From NCBI GenBank assembly GCA_030141605.1, contig JAQGDQ010000006.1, forward strand, positions 1,309,501 to 1,373,500: a DNA stretch of 64,000 nucleotides, written 5' to 3'. The stretch comes from Tubiluchus corallicola. Taxonomy: Eukaryota; Priapulida; Priapulimorpha; Priapulimorphida; Tubiluchidae. Shown here one piece after another: positions 1 through 64,000 of this stretch. Positions within the stretch are counted from its first letter, which is position 1. Every line of letters starts with the position of its first letter. Under the pieces are notes generated by a model. The model did no database searches. It had not been told where the DNA came from and saw nothing but the letters and a program-made list of their open reading frames with translations. The position numbers were made by a program, and so were the translations under genes.

Positions 1-1
1 G

Positions 2-68
2 TTGATAATTGCCGGCATTATTTTTGTGATTTTGGTAGCTTTATTTCTAGCAGCAGTGTACATAGCAG
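2..68 (+). CDS. Exon with signal-anchor transmembrane helix
   Basis: Read from position 2, this encodes about 20 consecutive hydrophobic residues (LIIAGIIFVILVALFLAAVY) and ends at a GTATGC donor in phase 1. A single uncleaved helix before a SEA domain is the usual N-terminal anchor of type II transmembrane proteases. The cytoplasmic tail and start codon are outside the window. Confidence 0.8.
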
Positions 69-3000
69 GTATGCCACTAATTTGTGTACAAATTAGGTGA
101 AAATAGGGGTAGAACTTTTGACAAATATAATCTTGAATATGAGATTAAAAGTTTGAATGGACTAAAATTAGACTAGAACATGAATGTAAATATCCTAAAC
201 TGTTAAGTATTTGTCTAATCTAGTCTAACTTGCCAAGCTTAAGAGGTAGGCCTATACAACTAGAGTCATGAAGCTGACAATTAAGAACTGTAGGTATGAA
301 ATTTCTAACACTAAATTTGTGTTCGATTTACATATTATCTTATTAAAAATTCAGCACGTTTAATTGTACACTTAATATGTACGTTCATTTTTATTTTTCT
401 ACTTAGTTATTTTTAATTCAGTTATTAATTATATGATTTTTTCCTTTGATTTCAAATTCACATTGCATTTGCATTACTGACTGTTATAGATATAACGCAT
501 TTGCTATTATGCAAAAATTGAAAGCTTCAAATACACGAATTCTCAATAATAAAATAATGAACCTAGTTTAGTAAGTCTCAATTGTCAAACACAAGAGGTT
601 CTAAACAATAAACGCACATGAACGAAAACCTTGAAACGATTTTGGTAGCTGTGTCTGTTTAGCTGCTTCTGGCTAAGTTTTACAAAATAAATCACACGGA
701 AAATGACATTTTGATGGTGGTCGTCAATTAGCTATGGTATTGCTTTTCCGCCTACTGTAGGAGTGTGGATAGCAAAAAATTGGATAAAAAATTACAATTG
801 GTTAAAAACAACCCACTAAATACGAAAAATATCTTAAACAATTTTTAGCTACACTGATATGTCCGTAACAATTCTGCTAAACAGTTAAGAAAATCTATAC
901 TGTTCACCATGCACAGCTAGCTGCTGTACAATCTAGTAAATCTAGAGCTCAGTATTTACTAAGCAGGATGTTGGCACTGACTGACAGTGCAGAGAATAAC
1001 AATAGTTATTGTACCATACATATATGCAGGGGTTCCTTGTAGTGATAACACAACCATATCTTACAGTATAGGTTTGGTTATTGTACTCTAGTATACAGTC
1101 TCAGAATGACCAAACTGGCCACTATCAAATCCTTACAAGAAAGACTACATATTTCAAGTTAAATTGAATTATTTTAAGAAATATGTTTTTCCAAGCCATT
1201 TGCATAAGTAAAAGAATGCAGTTTCATAAACTCAGAAGCATTTGGCAAATAAATGTAATTCATATAGAAACACTTTGGAAAAAAATGGTGTACTCTTTTT
1301 CATTAGGGCATGTATTCTTGGTGTAATATGCAAGGTTTTAAATACATGACTATACTTTAGTTGGTTTGAAGATGGGCAAACAAAGTTCAGTTACTTCACC
1401 TTTAACACAAAGGGATCCAAGAATTGGTAAGTAAACAAATAGATATTAACATAAAAATATTCTGCCTTATATCAATCAAAACTTCATAGCCAAATTACAA
1501 GTATAATTTTTAGCATCAAACAATGCGAAACTGTTAATGGCCATCAATGGCACGTCACCTGTACTATAAATGCACTCAACTATAACCTTTAGCCGCAACA
1601 GTAATGACCTTCTCTACATCTCTAAGCTATCATAGTTTTCCATTAGGTAAATTATCTACTATTGTTCCCAGTTACATGAGTTAAAAATAGGGAAAACTGC
1701 TACTGTTATTTATATAATTTATAATAATATTTCAGAGGATGTATTAGTAGGGGAAATGACAATAGAGAATTTAAATTATCAACCAGAATACAAGAACCCT
1801 GAGTCAAAACAATATAAGCAACTCGAAGCTAAAGTGAAAACAGGGGTAAGTATAAAAAATCTGATAAAGGTTTTGAAAGATGCAATGCTAAATTCGTAAC
1901 TGAGGTAAAACCATTTGACTGTTCTAAAAGCTTAGTCAAACAGCATAAGTGACACTTCAGCACCACTAATGCAGTTTGTGAAAATAACGACAACACGACA
2001 TGCAAAAGTTTCACTTGCTTATTTTATCTGCCTATTCTCTCTCTTTCTCTTATTAGTGATGTTGACCTTGGCCAATTGGTTTTAACACATATTTTAACGT
2101 CACTTAGAGTACTAAACCATACTGCAAAAAATTTTCAGCTTAAAGTATTCCAAGCACAGCACTCATTCAGATTCATAGCTATGTTTTTGTAAAACTTTAC
2201 AAAACTCCACATCTGGGAAGGAGTTCACAATCTTACCTCACAGGAACAGTTGCGTTTCTCAAAAACAACCTGAAAAATTGGTGAAGAACATGACCCTAAT
2301 TGAAAGAAGTTCAAAGTTTACATTTAATTTACTGAAATAATACACTGTTTTAGTAATGTAAATTTTTGCAAATTATATAGTAAGAAAAGCATCCCATTGT
2401 GCCATACCATTTTAAAACCTGCTAGTATAATAATGTTCAAAAATATTTTTACTACTTGGCAATGATACTGAATTGTAGGTAGGGTATTACCAAATATTTT
2501 GATAATGAGTAAGTGACACAATGCAAGCCCTCAATAGAATTCTCGTTCTGCATGAGCAGTGAATAACAGACATACTCTAATCTTAAACACACAAGTATAA
2601 ATTTGTTTGCGTAAATGTTGTTTGTACAAATTCTGTTTTGCAGATTAAAGAAGCATTGAGCTACGATCCACATCTAAATATAATTGATGATATACATATA
2701 TTGGAGTTCAGGTGCTAACATTTGACAAAATATACATTATTGTGAAATATTGTGAAAGTAATATTACTATAAGTTTTCAAATCAACCTTAAAATATTATA
2801 ACCTACTCCATACTTTTTAAGGAATGCCAAGTTAACAATATCAGATTTGATTAATTTGTGGAGCCGATGAGATTTAGCTATGATGCTAAACAGAAGTGCA
2901 TTTTTATAACTTATCCTACCTTGTGTAATATCATACAGGCCAGGCAGTGTGAAGACGAGGTTCGCAGCCAGAGTTAAGTCACCTCAAGAAGTAGATGCTG

Positions 3001-6000
3001 TAAGCCTGGAAACTGCCATAGCAGAAGCTCTTATTAAGTATGCAGAGAAAAATGATAACAATATAGGAGATCTGCAAACAAAACTCGACTTTGCTGTGAC
3101 TACAGAAGGTGAGTTTGTCCAGCAACAGTAAAAAGAATAATACGGGAAACAATTGGGCATGGGGGGGAGTAGTTTTACCCTGCGATCCAGGTTTTTTGTT
3201 GTAGAATGTGTACTTTACAAATAAGAGAGTTGCTAGCTGATGTTAAGCCTATTTACAGACAGTGCTAATGTTATTGTGAATGTGAAAAGAAATAGAAGAG
3301 ATACAATAAAAAGGAGAAAAGACGGTTACAGTACAGGAAAGGTAAATGTCCGGAATTCCACATTCTACTTTGGTTTCCAGTGTATGTTTTGCTGTGAATA
3401 GTGAGCAAAAATTCAACAAAAATCGTCATAATTTAATAATTTTATTACTCTGGATTAAATTTTTAAATTAGTGAATTAAATTTTTTTGAAATTCTGCCAG
3501 AAAGAAGGGAATTAAAAATTATATTTTTCCCTCAAAATATCTCAGTCCTTTCAGAATAGGGTTTGAGCAGAAAAACAAACTATAGAAAAACTGTTATGCA
3601 GGCAAGCAACCATTCATATTGCACTACGCAGAAAATTTGTATTACAAAAAATTTGAGCAGTTTTTTGACATTAAACTTGAGATCAATAATTTAAATTTAC
3701 TTTGGAGAATACCTGCAGAAAAATGAGTTGGTGCCCAAGATTTTGCGCCAGACTTCAAATGAGGTACTTTCCAGTGTTCTACAGATCCTGCAGTTGGTTG
3801 CACACACAGCTCTATAAGATACTATATGCCACTGAAAAGTATATGCCAAAAGCATACAAATGTGCTTGTGTGAAGCACTCGATGAATGCCTAAAAAACTC
3901 GCAAAATCATAAAATTATGACAAGCGACGTAGGCCTAAACTTTATGACTCTAGGTTACAATCCAAGACATCAACCAAGGTGAGATGTGGTCTCTCCAATG
4001 GAAACTGTCAACATGATTTGAATTCCATTCTGTGTATTTGCTACCGGATATATGTTCAGCTAGCAACTGCTTTGAAGACATATACAGCACTTTTAAAAAT
4101 GACCAACAGAGTCACTTGTATTCCATCTAATTACAAAATGTAACCAATTATTTTGAAGAATGACATGCTTGATTTATCTACATAATTTCAGACAACTTTC
4201 ACTGATTAATCCTAAAATCCATCATTCTAAGGAGAAATATACCCACGCAGACCAATTTCATTATTCTAAAGATGTATCAATAGTAAGAAATGAACACTGA
4301 AAATCGTTGCTTTTGAAGGTTTCAAACATATTTTGCACTCGCATATTACTTTATGTTCAGAAAGATCCAGGATGACTTAACGTGATGTGGCACAGTTACT
4401 GTTATCTTTACTATTTCTTTGGTTAAAGCCACCAACAAATTAGTTGGCTAAAGAAATATAGGTGGTGACTGTAAGTGTCAAGTCGACTATTCCTGAAAAA
4501 AAATCTTGATGTAGTTTTTTGTTTCAGAGTTTTTTAATGAATGCAAAATGAACAATGGAAACTGCAGTAACACATGCACTTGGATATTTGCTACAAACAA
4601 TTACATATGTGACTGTCCACCTGGCTATCAACTAAACCGAAATGGAAGAACTTGTGATGGTAAGAGGATGACTTAAATATGAATAGCAATAGTAATCTAA
4701 ATCTAAAGAATCACAATCTTAACTTCATGCATAATAATTTGTATTGTTGTAATTAAACCACAAATTTTTGAAGCATTCGACATAAAGCATTGTTGACCTG
4801 GTAGCTACAGCCACTGCCAGATGTCGTAAGCTACTACAGTGCATTCATCCACCGTGTGCAATTTCATCCACTGCTGGTACTTACGTATGAATAATGAAAC
4901 TGAACTGGTAGGTCAGGTTTCAAGAGATAATAAGCTTTCTAATTTGAACAACTATAGCATCTTACAGCCAGTCTTGACTAACTACTTTGCTTCTAATGTA
5001 ACCAAACATTACATACAGCAAAAAATTGTAGTTTTCTCAATTTCCTATAATTTTATTCTGAAATTTACTGAGTTAAAACATAAATCTATTTTCAGAAGCT
5101 CCAGAACCAACTACTTCTACACAAAGAACACCAGAGCCAACTACTTCATCTGAACCACAACCAGAACCAACCACTTCTACTGAGCCAGCACCAGAACCAA
5201 CTACTTCCACTGAGCCAACACCAGAACCAACCACTTCTACTGAACCACCACCAGAACCAACCACTTTGTCCGAACCAACACCAGAACCAACTACTTCTAC
5301 TGAGCCAACACCAGAACCAACCACTTCGTCTGAACCAACTCCAGAACTGACAACTTCTGCTGAACCAGCACCAGAACCAACCACTTCTACTGAACCAGCA
5401 CCAGAACTGACCACTTCTACTGAACCAACACCAGAACCGAAGACTTCTACTGAGCCAACACCAGAACCAACCACTTCTACTGAACCAGCACCAGAACCGA
5501 CCACTTCTACTGAACCAACACCAGAACCAAAGACTTCTACTCAGCCAACATCAGAACCAACCACTTCGTCTGAGCCAACACCAGAAACAACAACTGCTAC
5601 TGAACCAACACCAGAACCAACTACTTCGTCTGAACCAACACCAGAACTAACAACTTCTACTGAGCCAGCACCAGAACCAACCACTTCTACTGAACCAACA
5701 TCAGAACCAACCACTTCTACTGAACCAGCACCAGAACCAACCACTTCTACTGAGCCAGCAACAGAACCAACCACTTCTACTGAACCAACATCAGAACCAA
5801 CCACTTCTGCTGAACCAGCACCAGAACCAACCACTTCTACTGAGCCAGCACCAGAACCAACCACTTCTACTGAACCAACATCAGAACCAACCACTTCTGC
5901 TGAACCAGCACCAGAACCAACCACTTTGTCTGAACCAACACCAGAACCAACTACTTCTACTGAGCCAACACCAGAACCAACCACTTCGTCTGAACCAACA

Positions 6001-9000
6001 CCAGAACTGACAACTTCTGCTGAACCAGCACCAGAACCAACCACTTCTACTGAACCAGCACCAGAACCGACCACTTCTACTGAACCAACACCAGAACCAA
6101 AGACTTCTACTGAGCCAACACCAGAAACAACCATTTCTACTGAACCAGTACCAGAACCAACCACTTCTACTGAACCAACACCAGAACCAGTGACTTCCAC
6201 TGAGCCAACGCTACAGCTAACCACTTCTACTGAGCCAGCACCAGAACCAAACACTTCTGCTGAACCAACACCAGAACAAACCACTTCAACTGAACCAGCA
6301 CCTGAGCCAACCACTTCTGAGCCAACACCAGAACCAACCACTTCATCCGAACCAACACCAGAACCAACCACTTCTACTGAACCAACACCAGAACCAACCA
6401 CTTCATCCGAACCAACACCAGAACCAACCACTTCTGCTGAACCAGCACCAGAACCAACCACTTTGTCTGAACCAACACCAGAACCAACTACTTCTACTGA
6501 GCCAACACCAGAACCAACCACTTCGTCTGAACCAACACCAGAACTGACAACTTCTGCTGAACCAGCAGCAGAACCAACCACTTCTACTGAACCAGCACCA
6601 GAACCGACCACTTCTACTGAACCAACACCAGAACCAAAGACTTCTACTGAGCCAACACCAGAACCAACCACTTCTAGTGAACCAGCACCAGAACCGACCA
6701 CTTCTTCTAGCTTTTCCTTTCCAGTCCACACTGGAAGTCCAGAAGAATGTGCACCAGGTAAGTATAATATGATGGTGCTGAAACTTTACGGAATAATCCA
6801 TTTTAAAAATAATATAAACAAAGAAAACACACGTAGCTAAGATAGTCCAACCTTCTGAAACAATGTTTTTAAACAGCATGACAAAAATCACCCTTACAGA
6901 GCTTGAATTACAATGCTAAACGTCAGCAAGAATTCTCAACTAGAATGTGAGCAGTAAAACCAGTTGTTAAAGAAAGTAGTAAAATTAAAATCAAGTACAT
7001 AAGACTATTGTAACATTCATTTTTCATTGATCATTGCTTTGTTTTTTAAATATATATGTACAGTATATGTACGGAACCTGATTGTTTCTTCATTCTTTCA
7101 GACACGTTTACATGTACAGAAGGTGGATACAGCTTCATTCAGTGCTTACCTGAGACGTACAGATGTGATGGTGTTATAGATTGCTCAGATTCTACAGATG
7201 AAGAGGGATGTAATAATGAAGACTGTGATGGCAATTTTAGATGCAATAACACAAAATGCATTAACATGCATTACGTGTGTGATGGCATTTGGGATTGCAC
7301 TGATGGTATTTTTACTGCTATAATTTTTGTTCCAGCATGTCAGTTAGGAACACTAGCCACTATAACAGTTTAAATGTTATTTTATTGTTGTGTAACACAA
7401 TGCAAAAGCATAGAAACATAACATAACGTAACGAAATATAACATAATGTAATATGACGTAATGTAATTTGCTGTAATGTTACTTAATATTATTAACTGCC
7501 TGTAAGTGAAATATGGAAATTATCTTAACTGTGATATGAAACCAAGCCTTGCATATTCTTGGTAGCTCTGCTATTTCATAACCTGAACCTGATTTGTTTG
7601 TTTGACAATATTACAATATAACGAACATTGCTTTAACAAAATTCATTCATTAAATCTTGCAGGTAGTGATGAAGGTGAAATATGTACTTCCAAGACTTGT
7701 GATACAGATTCATACACATGCATGGATGGTTACTGTATACCGCAATCATGGTTGTGTGATGGAGAATTTGATTGTGTAGATGGAGATGATGAAAAATTAT
7801 GTGGTTAGTAACAGTTAAAACATTAAGATTTCATCTGACTGACAAGCATCTTTTGTTAATAATAGTAATGTGTTTGCATTGATGCAGGCTGTAGGCTGAT
7901 AGTAATACAATTAATGTCAGATTAGTCACACAAATTTGTATGTGCTTATGCTACCAGTGCAGAGAAAACCACCAGCTATGTTAAAGGAAAACCAGACGAT
8001 TGTTTAGACCCAATTTCATTTTAATTTACTGTCCAAAATATACATTTTATTGCCTATAAAGTTGGCAATTGTTTCTTGTATTTGAATAATTAGCTTAGAA
8101 AGTTAATTAATGGAACCAAACACAGCTATTGCTTATATCAGAAACTAACCTCAGTTTGTGCAATGGCAGGCATCTCCCTTGCGCATCAAGCACGTTTGCG
8201 TTAAATGTTACAGTACTGCTCTGACACATGACTGTTACATGACTGTTACGTAATCGCGTGATGTCACAGAAATGGGCTCTACGTCATATGACATTAGAAA
8301 CTAACACTGCAGCTCATGATCATGGTTATTTGTCGGTCACGCGAACATGACAAAAAGGCACCGTTGCCAATCTTAGTATCTTAGTAGATTCACTTAGTTG
8401 CACGTGACCTTGAAAGTAACAAAATTTGAGTATCCGAAGTAATTATTATTTAATCTAGGCTTTGATTTAAAAAAAGCTATTGTAGTTTTCAATATTTTAG
8501 AGCATTCTTTATTCTGTATTAATGTTTACACAATCGTCCGGTCTTCCTTTAATATTAACAAACCAACGATGAGAAGCTCGCAACAAAAGAGCAATAGTCA
8601 ATAGATTCTACTTCGGAAAAATTTTCAGCATTATAGCTGAATAAGTATGAAATTTAGAATACAGTTTCAAAAATTAGAAATCTTAATCTCTATTATAGAA
8701 ATTTTACTTGTAAGTTCAACAGCATTAATTTGATGTACTACTTAGTTTCCAGTGCAAACGAATGTGATGCTACGGATTTCTGGTGTCCAACAGACATGAT
8801 GTGCATTTCGCGTACTTGGACATGTGATGGTAAAGCAGACTGTAGCAATGGTGAAGACGAAGATGGAAGTTTGTGTAGTAAGTACTCTTATTAAAAATTG
8901 AAATAGTCCAAAAAGCAAAATGAAATACATAATTCAGCCACCTTAGTGAAAGCCACTTCAGCCAAATTGTGAAACTTAGTGATTCTATCAATTAAACAAA

Positions 9001-12000
9001 GCACATATGTAATAATTTCTTGAAGTTCAAGCCTCGAACTGATAATAGATGATGTTATATTCTCTTGGTGCACAAGAAAAAAATTAAACCTTTAGCTACA
9101 GACATGAACTTGAAAAGTGACAGATGCCTTCATGCCATTAAAACATACTGAAAAAACATCTAACAACTACATTTTAAGGAGCACATTACCTTGGATACCA
9201 GCAATGATAAGGTCCCACATATAGAACTATTAAGTTTGAATAGGATTCAAAAGAATTCCAAGTTCCAGCTCAAGATAAGTGTTTAGCAGGGTATCCAATA
9301 TCACATCATCATATGCCACTTTCTCTTGATTCCACTCCTACGAACACTATTTGAACTGCTACAGATAATAAAACTGTTGTTATTCTAATTATTGTTATAA
9401 CATTATAATTACTATTATTTTAGATTGCACAGCCGACGAGATGGCATGCGCAGTTGGTGGTTGTGTACCTTTACTTAATGCATGCAATGGAGTGAAAGAC
9501 TGTGGTGATGGCAGCGACGAATGGAATTGTGTCAGCATTGCTGGCGGTCAGCTGTTCGTATGGCATGCAGAGTTTGGCTATCAACCTGTGTGTACTGATC
9601 AATGGAGCAGAGACTGGGGAAATGCTGTCTGCTTACAACTTGGTTATAGGTAAAGTGCTAATAAGCTGACTGCAGCTGGCTGTAAAAACTGTCTTAAAAA
9701 CGTAGATTCAATGAGAAAGAGATGTCTTTCTCCTTTTAAAGATACCACCTGACAATTAAATGATTATTTTACAAAAAGTAATGGCTGGTAGGTGCCTGCA
9801 GAATAGTTGGTGACAACTAATCCTAGACCTTACATTAAAGTTGCAGACATTCTCACTTTTGTGCTATGTTCTGTAAAAGTGAGGAGAGCTTGCCTTATAA
9901 TGGAGTGCATTGGTAATACCCATATATACGAGTACCTAGTTCTACGAGATAGCCATCGATGGCAACAATTCATTGTTTAAGAACACAAGTCTGACATGTG
10001 ACATCTAGAAAAAAAACTTTCTACACCCTTGACCCTTAGAAAAATTCGTGCATTTCAAGTTCATACATTTAACACAGTGTTTATTTTTTTTAATAGTGGA
10101 ATTCTAGCATCATCTACATTACATGCAAACTATGAAGATAGGGGAAATTTTCATTTGATTGATGGTGCAGATCCGTTTTTGACAGAAATTTTGCAAAGTG
10201 CTGTAGATTACAGGTAATGATTAAGCACACTTCACAATCAATGGCTTGCTTCTAAAACTTGAGTATGCCTACCCAACTACTTTGTTACTGCTTTATTTGA
10301 AGTTTCCACTTTTAATGACTGGTTAAAGGACAGATGCACAGAAAATGTTGAAGTTGAGGTAATAGTTTCAAATGCCAAGCTGATTGGTGGGCCAATAATG
10401 AAAATCTTGGAAGATACTTCAGAAGGATATAAATCTGGAAAATTCTCAACTCCAAGTGTGTTATAATAAAATTATAACATAAGTGTAAGAATACAAATTA
10501 CTTAGTTACACCAATCTATACTGGTCTCCCTTTCAGTTGTGGTTTGTGAGTCCATAAATTACTTTTGTACTGTCTATGTAAATTCTGAGTCCTTAAATAA
10601 CATGAAATATATACGTGATTATATGCATATATAGCATAATGCACATCATGCATAAAAACATGCACTCCTGGTGCACTTTGTCGAAAACAAGAGGCACACT
10701 GTTTAATTTCTTCCATTCACTACATTATTATTTGTGTTATGTGCAGTTACGTATTTCCTTACTTGTTTCAGGTTTGCAGCAGACTGCATTGATAGGAGCT
10801 ACGTCATGATTGCTTGCCAGCAGTTCCAATGTGGCAACTGGTCAATGCCTGCTGCATTACTCCCCTCTCCGGCTCCAAGGCGTGTCAAGCGGTTAGTGGG
10901 TGGTGATGTGGCAATGGATGGAGAACTACCATCAGTAGCTATTGTTTATCACATCGAAACACAACAGCTATGTGTAGGGACCATAATCTCACCAATGTGG
11001 CTCATCACGTCAGCACGGTGTATAACTAAAATGTTAGTATAATATTTAAATTTTTAAAATTAAAATGTTTAACATTTAAGCAACATATTTGCACTATATA
11101 AATATGAAAATTACGGCTTCTGTTTTTAATGATGTAAATATGCTCATAGTTGATTATGTTTGTGAAATGGTTTTGTTCCAATCTATCAACTAGAAAATTG
11201 GACACCAGTGAGCATGGCATTCCTTTAAAATTTAGTCACCCGTTAATTTGAAATCACATTAAAGACAATGCTGCTGCAAAACTGAAGACATTCTAACTAA
11301 GATACATGTTTCACTTACAGTGATATGGATCCAAGTAAATATGCTATTGCTGGGGGAGCTTCATTCCCAAATCCATCAAATCCAAACACACAGCTCAGGA
11401 CAATACACAGGATAATTCTTCATCCCAAGGCACATTACACCAGGTAATACGTTAAACTGTTAATTTGAAATGAAATGGCCACGCAATTTTTTTGTTTAAA
11501 ACAACCAGTGTCACTTTTTACTAGAAAATGATTCAGAAAACAATGTGCTAATTGTCAGTACTATAAATTAAAGACTTCTAGATTTATACTTCAGTATTGC
11601 ATAATGCTTTTAACTGTTAAGTAATTTCATGCAAGTTATTCATAAGTGACAATTATCCAACCAACCATACAAGAAAAATGTATGTGGCACTGCATGCTAT
11701 GGTATCTTACATTTGCTGTGCAATGCGAATATTTCATATTCTGTTAGATTTCTTAATAAATAAGCAGTCTAGTTTTGCAAATTATTATTTTTTACTTTTG
11801 ACTACCAATTAAACAAAATAACTTCAAGATTAAGTATAACTGTAGTTAGCTTTAAATTAACTTTTTCAATATTTTTCAGATTCTTCCCAGATTATGATAT
11901 TGCATTGATAAAGCTAACTTTACCATTTAACTTTGATACCTATATCCAAGCAATATGTCTTCCCCAGCAAGCGGTAGCAACAGGAACCAAGTGCACAACT

Positions 12001-13849
12001 GCTGGATGGGGTTTTACAAATCCAGGAGGTACACCTAAATTTTATATAGCTGACACTGATGTAAAAATCAGAAAAGGTTTTTAGGTAATAAAGCCTATGA
12101 CAAATTCTGGATATTTACAACACACACAAAACGCCATTGCCAGCTGTTTTTAACATGTGTTAAACTTTACTAAGTTGAAATGAGCAAAATTATAAACAAA
12201 AAATAAAACTGAAATATTACACTAAAAAGTGCTGTATTGTACTAATACTTTCTACTAATTTACCAAATATCTACAAAAATTATAATATGAGTAATTGTGA
12301 AATATCAATACAATACTACACTACTACTACTGCAAACTACAAGCTACATGCATCACACTGCCCTAAATTACACCAAAGGAATAATAATTATAAACTGTGA
12401 AACAAAATATTGCAGCTGCAAAATTATTAATACAAAATTGCAGTAGCACCTAAGTTTTGCAAAGAATCACACACACAAGGCCTGTGCACAAAAGTAGATT
12501 TTTAGACTACTTGGAAATACTCTAGCGTCATTTAAAATATAAACACACTACAGAACGAAATAGAAATGTCCTACAAGATGTCGTGTAAAATTTTACATAA
12601 AAAGGCTTTCAATAAACAAATTCTTTGGACCATTCCAGTTTGTGGTTCCTCACTTGGAAATTGCAGACGTATATATGGCACAAACACATAGATGTGGAGA
12701 GAAAGATTATTTCTGCATAAAGGCACTGCTTGGAATTTTTGTATATTACGATCCTTCGTGGACGAATCCAATGCTGTCTCTGCATCCTTTTATAGTGAAA
12801 AATTTCTAAATAATTTGAAGTTATGGGCAAAGTGCTTGCAAGCCTTACAAGCCACTTACTAATCCGAGAAAGCCTTAAGAAACATTTTGTGCTGATACAA
12901 CTTTATGTATCACAGTAATTTGGAGAAGCACTCACAAAACAACATCTAATTTAATAATACTTATAACATCCCATCTCAGATTTAAAATACAAGTTAATTT
13001 TATTTTTGGGAATGAGAACAAACAGGAAGGAACTATTGTAATGTATGTACATAATGTTGTAATTTTAATCTTTATTTTCTAGGAATTTCCAGTGAAACAA
13101 TAAACACAAATTTAAATTACTTGGAAATACCAACATTAACTTCAGAGCTGTGTAACAGTACCAAGCATTACAATGGACACATGACAGAAACCACCTTGTG
13201 TGCAGGCTACCTTACTCAGGAAAAAGCATTATGTGATGTAAGTGCCTGGTGACTTTAATTACTAATTAATGCGTTTGAACAAAATGTTCAGACAAAACAT
13301 CCATTAACTGAAAATTATTACTGTTATTACGCCATTATAATTCTTACTTGCAAGTATCTCTAAAGTGGCACTTTTGTTATCTGTAAGAAACTGACACGGA
13401 GAAAAATGAGCAAATATACTGCATATTTAGTCCAAATCCAAATCATACATGCCATCTAACAAGCTCTAATCTATAATTAGATATCAGATAGATTACGTTC
13501 GCAAACACCAATTACAGCGTAACACTTTTTGAGTGAAGTATTTAATTAAATAGAGAAATATATATGCATATATGTTCAAACAGCTTTTTTTCACTACATT
13601 TCCAATAACTTGGAAAATGATAGCATTATTATAATATGGAAGGCATACCCCAATGTATTAGCTTTACAAAGCTTCTATACATTTCAGCATGATGAAGGAG
13701 CACCACTAATGTGTAGAAATCAAGAGGATGGTCCATGGGAGTTATCGGGTATTCTCAGCAGCCAACATAAGTGTGGATTATCTAAACAACCGTCCATTTT
13801 TGCCGACGTATTTGCTATGAGTGATTGGATACGATCAGTACTTAGCTAA
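2..13849 (+). CDS. Mosaic type II transmembrane serine-protease-homologue (TM-SEA-EGF-mucin-LDLa x5-SRCR-dead trypsin domain), 5' partial
   Basis: Seventeen exons join in phase: 2-68, 1361-1426, 1736-1845, 2644-2711, 2939-3108, 4528-4659, 5096-6757, 7102-7305, 7663-7803, 8746-8877, 9424-9649, 10097-10213, 10772-11032, 11321-11443, 11880-12028, 13083-13237, 13688-13849 (stop TAA). They give 1,314 residues; the cytoplasmic N terminus lies before the window. Domain order with residue numbers from position 2: TM 1-22, SEA about 45-160, EGF 161-204, mucin stalk 205-758, five LDLa 759-955, SRCR about 957-1055, protease-like 1073-1314. The layout resembles type II transmembrane serine proteases such as enteropeptidase, anchored at the cell surface with the protease domain outside. 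The trypsin fold is complete in length (242 aa) and cysteines, but two of three catalytic residues are substituted, so a binding, decoy or scaffold role at a mucosal surface is inferred. Exon 2 is the least certain exon. Confidence 0.88.
1361..1426 (+). CDS. Candidate short linker exon between TM and SEA
   Basis: A 66-nt segment between a CTTTAG acceptor and a GGTAAGT donor, phase 1 to 1, encodes a polar 22-residue stretch including MGKQSSVTSPLTQRDPRIG. It fits in frame but could be skipped without breaking the reading frame, since 66 is divisible by three. No family match, so inclusion rests only on splice sites and phase. Confidence 0.5.
1736..3108 (+). CDS. SEA domain (three exons)
   Basis: Exons 1736-1845, 2644-2711 and 2939-3108 encode about 116 residues with the SEA pattern: an N-terminal strand and helix with SKQYKQLEAKV, then a central PGSVKTRF motif, then a long amphipathic helix and a closing strand. 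The G-S-V sequence is where many SEA domains cleave themselves, leaving two tightly associated subunits. SEA domains are common next to heavily O-glycosylated stalks, which matches the mucin repeats downstream. Phases (1-0, 0-2, 2-1) join cleanly to both neighbours. Confidence 0.78.
4528..4659 (+). CDS. EGF-like domain exon
   Basis: One symmetric (phase 1-1) 132-nt exon encodes an EGF-like module with six cysteines: C at NEC, GNC, NTC, YIC, CDC and RTC, followed by aspartate. The spacing around CDCPPGYQL and the final RNGRTCD match the C-terminal half of EGF modules. It sits between the SEA domain and the mucin stalk, and a module-sized symmetric exon is typical of shuffled extracellular domains. 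Confidence 0.85.
5096..6757 (+). CDS. Mucin-like stalk exon, about 53 decapeptide repeats
   Basis: A single 1,662-nt exon (phase 1-1) is almost wholly built of a 10-residue unit of the form EPTTSTEPTP, with variants such as SSEPTP, SAEPAP and KTSTEP. Density of Thr, Ser and Pro predicts a rigid, heavily O-glycosylated stalk lifting the LDLa-SRCR-protease module away from the membrane. The last 25 or so residues are unique and end ECAP before the donor at 6758. Codon use is uniform across units at DNA level, so the array has expanded recently and is expected to vary in length between alleles. Acceptor at 5095 is TTTTCAG. Confidence 0.92.
5098..6700 (+). repeat. 30-bp coding minisatellite with higher-order structure
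   Basis: The unit is 30 bp, for example ccagaaccaaccacttctac followed by tgaaccaaca. Units are in strict register except one 27-bp unit near 6301, which stays in frame. A block of six units beginning at 5281 recurs almost unchanged at 5941 (offset 660 bp, 22 units) and again at about 6478 (offset 537 bp, 18 units minus 3 bp), so the array grew partly by duplicating multi-unit blocks. Confidence 0.95.
7102..9532 (+). CDS. Five LDL-receptor class A modules
   Basis: Exons 7102-7305, 7663-7803, 8746-8877 and the start of 9424-9649 encode five LDLa modules of six cysteines each. Calcium-cage ends read DCSDSTDEEGC, DCTDGSDEGEIC, DCVDGDDEKLC, DCSNGEDEDGSLC and DCGDGSDEWNC, so acidic Ca2+ ligands are present in all. 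Module 2 is split by the intron at 7306-7662 inside the DG-SDE motif, unlike the symmetric one-module-per-exon layout. Such modules bind protein ligands in lipoprotein receptors and in type II transmembrane proteases such as matriptase and enteropeptidase. Confidence 0.92.
7981..8552. mobile_element. TTAA-flanked MITE
   Basis: A 564-bp element (7985-8548) in the intron after LDLa module 3 has 19-bp terminal inverted repeats differing at two positions: left begins aggaaaaccagacgattgt and the right end is the reverse complement of aggaagaccggacgattgt. Both ends abut TTAA (7981-7984, 8549-8552), the target duplicated by piggyBac-type transposases. No transposase coding is inside, so it is a non-autonomous element. 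Family assignment by TSD only; the termini are not the usual piggyBac CCC. Confidence 0.6.
9533..10889 (+). CDS. SRCR domain and activation linker
   Basis: The end of exon 9424-9649, exon 10097-10213 and the start of 10772-11032 encode a scavenger receptor cysteine-rich domain: it opens with GGQLFVWHAEFGYQPVCTDQ, then WGNAVCLQLGYR, and closes with a DCIDRS...ACQQFQC segment. This divergent SRCR type directly precedes the protease domain in enteropeptidase, hepsin and TMPRSS proteins. A cysteine after it (CGNW) is positioned to make the disulfide that holds light and heavy chains together after zymogen cleavage. Confidence 0.8.
10893..13849 (+). CDS. Catalytically dead trypsin-fold domain
   Basis: Exons from 10893 encode a chymotrypsin-fold domain of 242 residues after a dibasic RVKR|LVGG zymogen site. 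The catalytic histidine motif reads LITSARC instead of TAAHC (Arg 1114), the aspartate is kept in DYDIALIKL (Asp 1166), and the nucleophile motif reads CDHDEGAPLMC instead of CQGDSGGP (Glu 1264 for Ser). The S1 specificity position is Ala instead of Asp. All fold cysteines are kept: LCVG, SARC, ICLP, TKCTTAGWG, ELC, TLCAG, LCD, LMC and HKCG. The reading frame is intact with good splice sites, so this looks like a maintained serine protease homologue and not a decayed gene. Final helix is MSDWIRSVLS, stop 13847-13849. Confidence 0.9.
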
Positions 13850-16074: not shown

Positions 16075-18379
16075 TCATGCAGCCTTGCAGCATTTATTTT
16101 GAGTTGTACTATGCTTTCTATTTCTGTCTTCATGAAGTACCACTTTGCTGCCATGGAAGTCTGCTTCTACTAAGCTACCTTTTCCATTAATATTGGCACA
16201 TGGAAAGAAGAATTTAAATATATATTCAAAAACCATATCAACATTTTCACCAGAAAGGCTAGAGGTTTCAAAATATGGAACAACGGCACCTACTTTTAGG
16301 GAAGGGTTGAGTTCGTTAGCTTTTGCTGTTGCAGTTTCATGCGACACAGCCCGAGAAGATGTTGTGGTTAGATCCAGCTTACAGCCTACAAGTACTTTGA
16401 GGCATTCCTCTTCTGCATACGAGCGAACAAGTGGAATAAACCGATCCCTATGCAAAAAAATTCTATACAAAGAATCAGGAAAAATCTAATAAGGTAAAAT
16501 CAAAAACTCAACCACTATTGAAATGCTCCCTGCAAAATCTCCAGTAGAAAGTTCTGTATAAAAGTGTCAGCATGACTTTCTGGGAAAGACCACAACGTAT
16601 TAATGTACAAGTTATTGTGTCTGAGCCACGGTTTCACAGGATTCGCGATTTAAGCGGCTCTCCGAAAATTTCTAAGTTCAACAGTCACCAATTATACTCA
16701 AATATACTGCAAAAGTTTTGCAAATAATTGCAAAACATTTGCAGGTGTTCGCTGTTGTCACCTAAAGGTTGCTCGGAAATTTTTTTTAAAACATTAAAAA
16801 GTTGTCACCGGAGTCGCAAAATTTGTGCAAATATGTCACCGATTATTCGTGATTTTCGTAAATAATTTCAGAATCTGTGAAAATTTGGAGGAAATTTAGG
16901 AAAGCTTTTAAGAATCCTGAGACGGCTTTAGGACCGTTTTTCAACATTTCACCGAACTAACTACAGTTAGCTTTCATGTATTTTGCCAAACATTTCCAAT
17001 GAGCTTCTTGCGGACAGAAAGGGACTAATTTAGAAACAATTTTTCGAAATTTTCCCTACAATTTTCAAAGTTTGTCGATAGCATAGACATTTATGATGTT
17101 CAGTCTTAGAAAACTCACCATAAAGCTCTGTAAGAATCTGCACACGACATATCAAAAGCTAAAATAACAACTTTAGCACCACGGAAATAATGTGCTCCTA
17201 AACCTGTTCCTGAAAAGAACTTTTCCTGTCCTGCAGTATCCTAGAAAATTAGAATAAACAATACCAAAACATTATACTTACAATTTACGAATAATAAGTA
17301 ATTTGCGAATAATTTATGAAGTTAACTTATTACATCAAACGTATTATGCCAATTCAAATTTGAAACAATATCACTTGTTCATCGGTGAATAAAGAAGCTA
17401 AAAATGCAAATCACAACATTACAGTTGAGTTAAGTACAAGAATGGTATGATAATTAATCATGATAATTAACTTGTTTATACAAAAACTGTCATTTATCAG
17501 TAAGAATTTAGTTTAACATTGTTCAGATTTATGTATGTATGTGATCATGACTAATACACATGATACACTAAATACAACCAAAGATATGCATGAATTCTAA
17601 AAAGGTGTAAATAGGTGATTCATTGTTATTATACCAATATTATATTACTTTTGAAATATCTGGTGTGCAGACATTTCAACACAGGACATTTTGCCACAAG
17701 ACGCTAGGACACAAAAGTCATTTGGACACAAGGCACTTCGGACACAAAGCTGCTTCGACAAATTAGGTAATTTGGACCCAAGGCGATTTGGACACTAGGT
17801 CATTTAGACATACGGCGATTTGTACACACAGGACATTTAGACACAAGGATATATGGACGCATGGGACATTTCCTTGCTCATTTAGTGTAAATAATAACTT
17901 ATTAAAGACATTAGTAAGTTAGACAAATGTATACATTAAGGCCTATTCTTCAATATTACTTTATTACATACTTACCCATATCGCAATATTAAATGAACCC
18001 CATCGCTTCATGTAAAGGGCTGCACCAATGGTCTGAAAAAAAGACAGGGTAAAAAAGATTCGTTTTAAACATTCTAAAACGAAAATGTAAATACTGTAAT
18101 TACCATTCCTGTAATACATATAGTTATTATGCAATTATTAAAGAACTATGCAGTTTCTTCAGTGTGGTTCTGGCCATCCACCTTAATTACAAGTGTAAGA
18201 ATAGCAAAACGTAAATAAATATAAACAGAAAATTATTTTTAAAAAACGTGAAAAAGCTATACCGCTTCAGATATCGGATCAAATGTTTTTTCTTTATATC
18301 TTCTAATCAAAGAAGTTTTTCCAACGCCACATGTTCCAACAATTACAACTTTTAGGTCTCTGAAACAATACAAAGCCAT
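16075..18379 (-). CDS. Rab20-like small GTPase
   Basis: Four minus-strand exons: 18263-18379 (ATG at 18379), 17976-18032, 17119-17240, 16075-16447 (stop TGA). They encode 222 residues, close to the 234 of human RAB20. G1 P-loop GTCGVGKT at 15-22, WDTAGQEKF across an exon junction at 58-66, ETSS for G5 at 159-162, and C-terminal CCKAA for geranylgeranylation. The segment TIGAALYMKRWGSFNIAIWD is diagnostic of the Rab20 branch; Rab20 acts in endosome and phagosome trafficking. The G4 motif is GCKLD instead of the usual NKxD. The sequence before DLKVV also reads as an acceptor (TTGTTTCAG, exon start 18359), so an upstream first exon is possible instead of the ATG used here. Confidence 0.85.
17670..17875. 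repeat. Degenerate 15-16 bp minisatellite
   Basis: About 13 imperfect copies of a unit like ggacacaaggcgattt lie in tandem in the intron between Rab20-like exons 2 and 3. Sequence drift among units is high, so the array is old. It resembles in style the short-unit arrays in the arms of the foldback element at 39.6-40.8 kb, though the unit differs. Confidence 0.75.
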
Positions 18380-22376: not shown

Positions 22377-32043
<9,667 letters not shown>

Positions 32044-62600: not shown

Positions 62601-64000
62601 TATGGCAGTAAACGCTGGCAGGATTGAATTGTCCAAAATAATAATCACGATAATCAATTTTCTAATTTTAATTTTAAAAGTTGTCGAATTAAAGCAGGAT
62701 TTGAATTACTTTTAGTGCTGATTAGGCAAAAACTGGGTTTATACTGCTTCTGTTTTGCTTTGTTAAACCTTAAATTTAAACCTTAACTTTAAACATTTCT
62801 TTTTCAAGCCTTATAATGAGTGGCCATGAACGAGGTCTTAGAAAAGGAACAAGCTTCCATTTAGATACTTTCATTATTGGACAGCTAGCTTTCCTAAACT
62901 CAGTGTTTGGTCTTCCCTGGATGTGTGCTGCTACTGTGCGAACAATGGCGCATGTCTCAGCTTTGACTGTCATGTCTAAAACTCATGCACCGGGAGAGAA
63001 GTCAAAAATTGTCACTGTGTACGAACAGCGAGTTACGAATCTGGTTGTCAGTGTTCTTATGAGTGAGTATGATTTTAGTTATTTTTAAATCAAATTGGGA
63101 AATGTGGCAGGAATCTGTGAAGTATCATTGCACCTTATATGTTTCAGTATCTTACGTAACAGAAAGCTTGGTCATAAAGATTGCCAGTTGCAACAGAATT
63201 GCCTCAATAAAATTCAGCTTTTTCTTGTTCTAATTGCCTTCTGTTTTAACCAAATATCGTTAAAACTTGTACTAATGACCACCTGTTCTTGGTTTGGAGT
63301 TTCATTATACTGAATTCTAAAATTTTAGGTGTTTTCTTTCAGTTTTTAGCATATTAATGGGATCTGTTTTGAGAACAGTACCGGAGGCCGTGTTGTTTGG
63401 AATTTTTTTATATATGGGTGTGAGTAACCTGAAAGGAATACAGCTGGTTGATCGCATTAAAATGATGTTCAAATTACCTAAATACTTCCCAGATGTGAGA
63501 TATGTGCGGAGGGTGAGTAAAATATCTGAATGTAAATCAGATCCAGCAGAAGTGAAGCTTTGCATGTTTAAAAGTTGTTTAATTCTAAATGTTTGATTCT
63601 AATTTTGTTTAAAAGAAAAAACTGGGCAACATAATGCACATTCCAGCTAGATTTCGCATTTCATTTAGCATTTCTGACATGTTAGCTCACAGTGTGGGGT
63701 GGAGTACTAGAGTAAGGTTTGAAAATGAAATTTGTCTGTACGTGGTGGTTTGCTAAAAAAGCAGATAATTTAAACAACCGTTACTAACAATAATTTGTAG
63801 CGTCATACATTACTTCTCGTTTTCTCTTATTTGTATTTTTTTCATTATACGTGCAGTTGGATAATTGTTTGTCATTAAGACTTTTGTAGTACGCGTTATG
63901 CAGAAAAAACTGACGTCTTATTATGAGTATGAATTTGCAGGTGAAGGTATCCAGAATACATCTCTTCACATTTGCGCAGATAATCTGTGTTGGCATACTG
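41265..64000 (+). CDS. SLC4 family bicarbonate transporter, anion-exchanger-like, 3' partial
   Basis: Twenty-five phased exons: 41265-41321, 41778-41976, 43967-44142, 44466-44666, 45931-45964, 46140-46175, 46534-46615, 46982-47076, 47480-47652, 48507-48684, 49198-49333, 50933-51001, 52524-52608, 53449-53665, 54498-54628, 56698-56914, 57542-57751, 57999-58147, 58452-58646, 59581-59838, 60905-60997, 61678-61844, 62809-63062, 63343-63512, 63941-64000. They give 1,214 residues; the last helices and C-terminal tail lie beyond the edge. Start ATG sits in a good context (aagaATGg). The cytoplasmic domain shows [10 protein letters not shown] and [15 protein letters not shown]; the membrane domain shows [21 protein letters not shown] and [16 protein letters not shown] carries Glu where anion exchangers have Glu681 (human band 3) and Na-bicarbonate cotransporters have Asp, so Cl-/HCO3- exchange at the plasma membrane is the best guess; FLDEALVLP and LFAGQPL are more cotransporter-like. 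Confidence 0.92.
42516..43618. mobile_element. Pogo/Tigger-like DNA transposon, non-autonomous (copy 1)
   Basis: A 1,099-bp element (42518-43616) in SLC4 intron 2 is flanked by TA on both sides (42516-42517, 43617-43618). Terminal inverted repeats of about 23 bp start cagtagtcgccgcttaatag on the left and, in reverse complement, cagtagtcaccacttaatag on the right. The open frame 43046-43297 and the following K-Q-P-T-L-K-E-F sequence look like a transposase C-terminal remnant. TA duplication and CAGT ends point to the Tc1/mariner-pogo group. Confidence 0.75.
44849..45590. mobile_element. hAT-like DNA element
   Basis: A 726-bp element (44857-45582) in SLC4 intron 4 has short inverted ends cagggccg and the matching ggccctg, and 8-bp flanks tattcagt and cattcagt differing at one base. 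CAGGG ends with an 8-bp target duplication is the hAT pattern. The open frame 45195-45431 may be a transposase remnant but shows no diagnostic motif. Confidence 0.55.
48507..56914 (+). CDS. SLC4 band-3-type cytoplasmic domain (exons 10-16)
   Basis: Encodes [113 protein letters not shown] and [15 protein letters not shown]. These are the conserved blocks of the dimeric cytoplasmic domain that in band 3 anchors partners and regulates transport. A Lys/Arg/His-rich linker (KLRHRKMGG) follows. Confidence 0.9.
49566..50443. mobile_element. Pogo/Tigger-like element (copy 2)
   Basis: An 876-bp relative of copy 1 in SLC4 intron 11. The right end (agtctattaaatggcaccta, then ctg, ending 50441 before TA) is well kept; the left end (catgtggcgctgtttattag) is decayed. 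Shared internal blocks include gactcaaaaatgtctgg with ggccgc...tattcaaat and the poor copy of the transposase tail (attttcaatgtttttatcac). Shorter and more diverged than copy 1. Confidence 0.65.
51985..52060. mobile_element. Possible decayed hAT end
   Basis: The stretch accaactttggagtcgcgaa and the nearby gtggggtcgcggc resemble the terminal region of many animal hAT elements (a CAGTGG..CCAAC..GGTCGCG style end). No second end or target duplication was found. Confidence 0.25.
54838..55520. repeat. Cluster of CCCGGGATC-type palindromic motifs
   Basis: Motifs catcccgggatca (about 54839), tggatcctgggatcgag (about 55419) and aggatcccgggattgag (about 55466), plus accggga near 55029, recur in an AT-rich SLC4 intron. 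This spacing is common near termini of BED-finger hAT elements, but no complete pair of ends is visible. Confidence 0.3.
57542..64000 (+). CDS. SLC4 transmembrane domain, partial (exons 17-25)
   Basis: Opens with [20 protein letters not shown] and the first helices ([20 protein letters not shown]). Exon 20 (59581-59838) encodes a large extracellular loop with NMS and NGS sequons at residues 898 and 916 and about ten histidines, followed by [20 protein letters not shown]. Exon 22 carries the Glu 1048 equivalent of band 3 Glu681. Exon 24 carries [20 protein letters not shown]. The window ends within a helix ([14 protein letters not shown]). Confidence 0.92.
62232..62562 (+). repeat. 167-bp tandem duplication in SLC4 intron 22
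   Basis: Two near-identical copies begin at 62232 and 62399 (for example gtcattcggcctgat at 62233 and 62400). Each includes a good splice acceptor (tttttggttacag or tttttg-like, ending 62327 and 62494) followed by an open stretch in the phase of the preceding SLC4 exon. Few differences between the copies indicate a recent event. Confidence 0.9.

Follow-up and report, generated by a model that had tools for sequence, protein, structure and literature searches.

A catalytically dead trypsin-like domain with Glu195 on a membrane-anchored, mucin-stalked protein of Tubiluchus corallicola, and its likely counterparts in insects

The closest described layouts to the one reported here are those of two insect proteins. 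Apis mellifera SPH54 (15980) is given in Table 1 of PMC1761132 as TM-LC-EGF-13LC(HEPSr)-5LDLA-SR-SPH, and its row lists ASYSC at position 57, an unchanged DIAL and NDEGAP at position 195, with no Drosophila counterpart and a length flagged as '?2733'. In Tenebrio molitor, SerPH364 is listed as a type II transmembrane (TM) protein with SEA, EGF, LDL and SRCR domains, the triad S-D-E and the S1 residues D-R-R, and it is expressed, with RPKM values of 7 to 52 over the seven samples shown (PMC11172050). Among the 125 inactive Tenebrio homologues tabulated in the same source, Ser195 is kept in 24, and the rest carry mostly G, T, N, L, V or I, while Glu belongs to the residues seen one to four times at this position and is a rare replacement (PMC11172050). 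The printed Drosophila/Ostrinia Table 2 holds no SPH54-like protein, and on that table a protein of this kind would have been lost there. The excerpts of PMC1761132 and PMC11172050 used here do not discuss a reach beyond insects for SPH54 or SerPH364, and no functional study of a protein of this type was found in the literature searched.

The window, that is, the whole stretch of Tubiluchus corallicola DNA that was analysed, is 64 kb long. It holds 17 plus-strand exons of a gene that, together with one predicted exon upstream, encodes a protein of 1432 aa (Table 1). The 1432 codons run over 18 exons with no stop or frameshift, the sole stop standing at the end, and the 16 introns among the 17 window exons have GT-AG ends and leave one joint frame. 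Since the exon edges were drawn by hand at GT-AG sites of matching phase, the canonical sites are partly there by construction, and the independent support for the gene model comes from its unbroken homology. Exon 1 was picked by eye for its open frame, phase and GTGAGT donor, without homology support and with a second in-phase GT passed over.

Table 1. Exons of the Tubiluchus corallicola gene, with positions counted from the first base of the window unless a contig is named
Feature	Position	Strand	Evidence or content
Exon 1 (predicted)	ATG at contig C2185:1307357, outside window	+	by eye
Exon 2	starts 63 bases before window, ends 68	+	TM helix LIIAGIIFVILVALFLAAVYIA in 1..68
Exon 3, juxtamembrane	1361..1426	+	frame and phase only
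Exons 4-6, SEA	1736-1845, 2644-2711, 2939-3108	+	Pfam SEA E 2e-10
Exon 7, EGF-like	4528..4659	+	Pfam FXa_inhibition E 6.3e-9
Exon 8, Pro/Thr/Glu/Ser stalk	5096..6757	+	composition, tandem repeat
Exons 9-12, five LDLa then SRCR start	7102-7305, 7663-7803, 8746-8877, 9424-9649	+	Ldl_recept_a E 1.3e-42, 5 stretches
Exon 13, SRCR middle	10097..10213	+	SRCR_2 E 1.4e-6
Exon 14	10772..11032	+	SRCR end, Cys1, RRVKR↓LVGG, residue 57 = Arg (LITSARC)
Exon 15, protease-like domain	11321..11443	+	translation
Exon 16	11880..12028	+	Asp102 (DYDIAL), Cys122
Exon 17, protease-like domain	13083..13237	+	residue 189 = Ala
Exon 18	13688..13849	+	HDEGAP (193 His, 194 Asp, 195 Glu, 197 Ala), domain end, stop TAA at 13849

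The protein begins with a cytoplasmic tail and a transmembrane helix, which are followed by a SEA domain, an EGF-like domain, a Pro/Thr/Glu/Ser stalk, five LDLa modules, an SRCR domain and the trypsin-like domain. This is the architecture of a type II transmembrane serine protease (TTSP), with an N-terminal tail, a single transmembrane helix, stem modules and a C-terminal S1 domain; the membrane topology was read by eye from TRRW, which lies directly upstream of the helix LIIAGIIFVILVALFLAAVYIA, and the tail exon is a predicted one. The stalk comprises about 536 aa (31.5% T, 27.1% P, 19.6% E and 12.1% S), and its exon carries a 30-bp tandem repeat in 53.6 copies. In the SEA domain, RPGSVK stands at the usual place of Gly-Ser self-cleavage, with Lys-Thr after the Val; it may be a SEA self-cleavage motif, which in MUC1-like domains is a Gly-Ser scissile bond followed by hydrophobics. 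The membrane anchor (2-68) and the mucin stalk, with its repeat, that an earlier sequence-only reading of this locus had placed upstream of the protease fold are thus real.

Exons 14 to 18 join in frame into a full S1 domain. Pfam Trypsin (PF00089) matches it at E 7.8e-40 over positions 2-220 of a 220-position profile, which places it in the S1A fold; its best solved relative is the enteropeptidase light chain (E 5.4e-39), and the bovine enteropeptidase domain is 37% identical to it over 222 columns. On the bovine alignment, the window protein has R57, D102, A189, H193 and E195. The active S1A triad His57-Asp102-Ser195 is therefore replaced by R57, D102 and E195, and the changes at the active site are H57R, S195E, G193H and D189A, with D102 and D194 kept. 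As judged by eye, the translation has the cysteines for all four of the usual S1 disulfides, as well as Cys122 and its pre-cleavage partner, and the cleavage site RRVKR↓LVGG fits the furin rule R-X-K/R-R. Judged by its sequence, the trypsin-like domain is complete but catalytically dead, and with Arg, His and Glu at positions 57, 193 and 195, usual catalysis is, on these residues, not its working mode. The in-frame exons, the profile match and the enteropeptidase alignment agree with the sequence-only reading, which had described a dead trypsin fold of intact frame, length, cysteines and cleavage site, with His57 changed to Arg, Ser195 to Glu and Asp189 to Ala and with Asp102 kept. That reading had also allowed for an alternative active exon carrying HxC and GDSGGP, and none was present in the six frames of the 64-kb window, where GDSGG, DSGGP and [TSVAIL][AS]AHC gave no match. 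The looser pattern [AS][AGTS]HC gave four matches in the same scan (2389 and 12350 on the plus strand, 2955 and 29102 on the minus strand), all without protease-like context, and the two on the plus strand lie in introns of the pseudoprotease gene.

Several other features were identified in the window. Ras-family GTPase exons on the minus strand (16075-17240, E 9.7e-7 and 2.3e-5) are convergent with the 3' end of the pseudoprotease gene, and an imperfect 16/32-bp minisatellite lies at 17687-17871. An endonuclease-reverse transcriptase match (27291-27890, minus strand, E 2e-10) is LINE-like, and adjoining it is a frame that encodes a KH domain (28192-28554, minus strand, E 3.7e-9). On the plus strand, a weak similarity to RsmB/F methyltransferases, below the curated cut-off and possibly NSUN-like, was found in a reading frame at 31744-32043 (E 1.3e-4), as was a bicarbonate transporter exon at 62780-63088 (HCO3_cotransp, E 1.6e-31).

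The genome (G000; 343.5 Mb in 2344 contigs) was searched exon by exon. With the window protease domain as the query, 58 matches had E<=0.1, five of them being the gene itself, and the best of the others (C1399), a single open frame in which both His57 and Ser195 are preserved, was 31% identical. With LDLa-SRCR as the query, 69 matches reached E<=0.001 among the 128 of 182 candidates scored, and among these candidates no match outside the gene passed query residue 229 of 308 (main SRCR part). The SEA profile had no match in the whole genome and missed even the SEA domain of the gene itself, which is split over exons, so that this search was uninformative. No second copy of the gene was found when the genome was searched exon by exon with the protein as the query, and the search for an active paralogue that the sequence-only reading had proposed, run in the same way and with the same 128 of 182 LDLa-SRCR candidates scored, found none of the same layout.

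Replacement of the catalytic serine is not confined to this gene. The Trypsin profile search of the genome scored 150 of 363 candidates, and in the part of this list that was fetched, the 53 sites outside the window that cover position 195 have 46 Ser, 2 Glu, 2 Asp, 2 Ala and 1 Arg, while the 21 sites that cover position 57 (22 rows, L019 and L050 being the same exon) have 19 His, 1 Gln and 1 Arg; since some rows are near-identical (L023/L024, L032/L033 and L040/L047), these are counts of places and not of independent genes. L010 and L030, which repeat L002 and L004, and L051, which holds no protease, had been excluded beforehand. Three matches to GDEGGP were found in the genome. Two lie in the genes on C389 and C1024; the remaining one (C984, L051) has no protease context and was rejected as a protease. 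The wider pattern GDxGGP had 212 matches versus 36 in the reversed control, with C88 (GDDGGP) among the matches listed. The C1024 gene (L003, C1024:924000-932500, minus strand) is a separate gene with LDLa and, by eye, CUB upstream, and it carries both TSARC (Arg57) and GDEGGP (Glu195). On C389, the plus strand (L049/L050) has GDEGGP, the position-57 exon being absent from the contig, and the minus strand has AAHC and GDDGGP, with Asp102 changed to Leu on a fragment alignment. AAHC and GDDGGP were also found on C1472 (L062/L069), and C2247 (L002) has AAQC and GDRGGP.

In the protease trees, no branch of which reaches the tool's own good-support mark, the dead domains of the C1024 gene, both strands of C389, C1472 and C2247 fall together with C1048, whose triad is intact (support 84/95, or 83/97 without the trait columns). 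The window domain has a long branch (2.76-2.78) and is placed weakly with bovine enteropeptidase (72/80 and 70/83). That the window gene and C1024 inherited R57/E195 from one ancestor was considered and set aside, as the best trees separate the two; joining them was not rejected (p-AU 0.204), nor was forcing the window domain together with C1024 and C389p (p-AU 0.11). An acidic residue 195 probably arose more than once, and because four other genes of this genome, in another tree group, have an acidic residue 195, Glu195 alone is no proof of orthology.

For the insect proteins, the comparison uses the domain lists in print and one motif of six residues in place of the sequences themselves. As listed, SPH54 has the TM, the EGF, low-complexity repeats before exactly five LDLa, the SR and the inactive domain of the window protein, with DIAL kept in both and NDEGAP in place of HDEGAP; it differs in that no SEA is listed, residue 57 is Ser and the repeat is named HEPSr. 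The published entry for SerPH364 shares the type II TM, SEA, EGF, LDL and SRCR, as well as an inactive domain that combines Glu195 with Asp102, but has Ser at residue 57, where the window has Arg, and Asp at residue 189, where the window has Ala. Thus, the order TM-(SEA)-EGF-repeat stalk-LDLa-SRCR-SPH (with the beetle stalk and LDLa number outside the comparison) and Glu195 with Asp102 kept are common to this group, on its published entries, and the window protein. Orthology is the simplest reading of the domain order, the repeat position, the bee LDLa number and DEGAP as published, and we consider it quite likely that the window gene is the orthologue of both insect proteins and that the domain lost catalysis before arthropods split from the Tubiluchus line and has since been retained. 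The architecture, which the sequence-only reading had called unusual, had by these entries been described already, together with Glu195, for bee SPH54 (2006) and Tenebrio SerPH364 (2024). Orthologues with an intact H-D-S triad, for which that reading had also allowed, were not encountered, as both published look-alikes are dead.

The TTSP architecture might instead have been inherited while Glu195 arose separately in the insects and in the window gene. Such convergence would agree with the 7 of 53 position-195 sites elsewhere in the genome that are non-Ser, four of them acidic, and with the listed difference at residue 57 between the insects and the window, but we regard it as unlikely, since DEGAP with Ala197 is common to the window and the published bee motif and the motif of the acidic paralogues is GDEGGP or GDDGGP instead. 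A recently inactivated protease in decay, that is, an early pseudogene, appears highly improbable: the uninterrupted 1432 codons, the two or more base changes that the genetic code demands for Ser to become Glu, and the published insect look-alikes that are dead with the same Glu195 all speak against it, even though the long terminal branch of the window domain and the loss of several active-site residues at once are what decay might produce. A further possibility is a dominant-negative decoy role, in which the domain and an active sister protease would compete for a substrate or an inhibitor, and decoys are described as a class of pseudoproteases in the part of PMC13194640 used here. However, the S1 pocket is altered (D189A, G193H), so that trypsin-type substrates and inhibitors should not dock as usual, and no close active paralogue was found among the candidates scored in the exon-by-exon genome search. 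We therefore consider a decoy role improbable, and the dominant inhibition suggested by the sequence-only reading gains little support from a best non-self match of so low an identity. Taken as a whole, the observations are best explained by a conserved non-proteolytic binding module that is orthologous to the insect pair and not a gene in decay, a reading that we hold to be somewhat more probable than an even chance.

The genome has at least 118 homeodomain matches, and among the 19 read of 20 fetched are homeodomains that we take to be Hox1, 2, 3, 4, 5, Antp/Lox5-like and Abd-B/Post2-like, which make the animal most likely a bilaterian. PF00379, the arthropod cuticle domain, had no match in the genome in a search run without a positive control; this family is large in arthropods. 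The Hox genes and the lack of a PF00379 match suggest a bilaterian outside arthropods, and the dead site is then probably as old as the split between the insects and the Tubiluchus line; it predates that split if orthology holds and the animal is no arthropod. Whether one orthologous Glu195 pseudoprotease goes back to the protostome ancestor, or possibly to that of the bilaterians, and has been conserved as a receptor or ligand of membrane-mucin type, with the charged pair around Glu195 replacing catalysis and making its binding site, is to us an evenly balanced question; it would be the oldest inactive TTSP lineage known to us. The published entries for bee SPH54 and Tenebrio SerPH364 had already made the architecture known, and what the window gene adds is probable depth. 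With the same layout and DEGAP in a genome that has Hox genes and no cuticle-domain match, two rows of insect tables become a candidate for a conserved family, and, if the orthology is true, it raises the question of what a protease fold with Glu for Ser has bound since before the arthropod split. The finding is of value for how deep this conservation probably reaches and for a binding hypothesis that can be tested.

As a binding module, the putative surface protein would be raised on its long, probably O-glycosylated stalk, and furin-type cleavage at RRVKR↓LVGG would yield two chains held by a Cys1-Cys122 disulfide. The new N-terminus may then pair with the retained Asp194 and give the fold its 'activated' shape without activity, and Glu195, here with Arg57, would fill the former catalytic site as a charged pair. 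In active enzymes the side chains of His57 and Ser195 meet, so that an ion pair between Arg57 and Glu195 is conceivable. Together with LDLa and SRCR, the domain surface would serve to bind a protein ligand in the manner of the beta chains of HGF and MSP. The SEA domain may be a breakable joint for ectodomain release, with Lys-Thr after the Val making self-cleavage uncertain. By analogy with HGF and MSP, retention of the cleavage site, of Asp194 and of the interchain cysteines suggests that the binding domain is processed into two chains.

Among other known systems, HGF and MSP are described as two-chain pseudoprotease ligands formed by cleavage (PMC13194640, in part), and the enteropeptidase heavy chain as a clamp on the light chain (PMC9663175, in part). 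Enteropeptidase resembles the window protein in its type II TM, SEA, LDLR, SRCR and S1 domain, but as described it is active and has CUB and MAM, whereas the window protein has an EGF, a mucin stalk, five LDLa and a dead triad. The window protein is thus not enteropeptidase proper, the triad being dead and CUB and MAM having no match at E<=1 in the two protein pieces scanned, with the stalk excluded. Apis SPH56 (Drosophila match CG1632) and Drosophila SPH198 also combine, as listed, a TM, SEA, LDLA and an inactive SP-like domain; unlike the window protein, they have a Frizzled domain and two LDLA, with no SRCR or EGF listed, and the bee protein has EFAGSP at position 195. The HGF/MSP beta chain and haptoglobin, as far as the sources used describe them, are like the window domain in being inactive S1 domains that bind partners. 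They are unlike the window protein in that they are secreted and have other accessory modules and other replacement residues.
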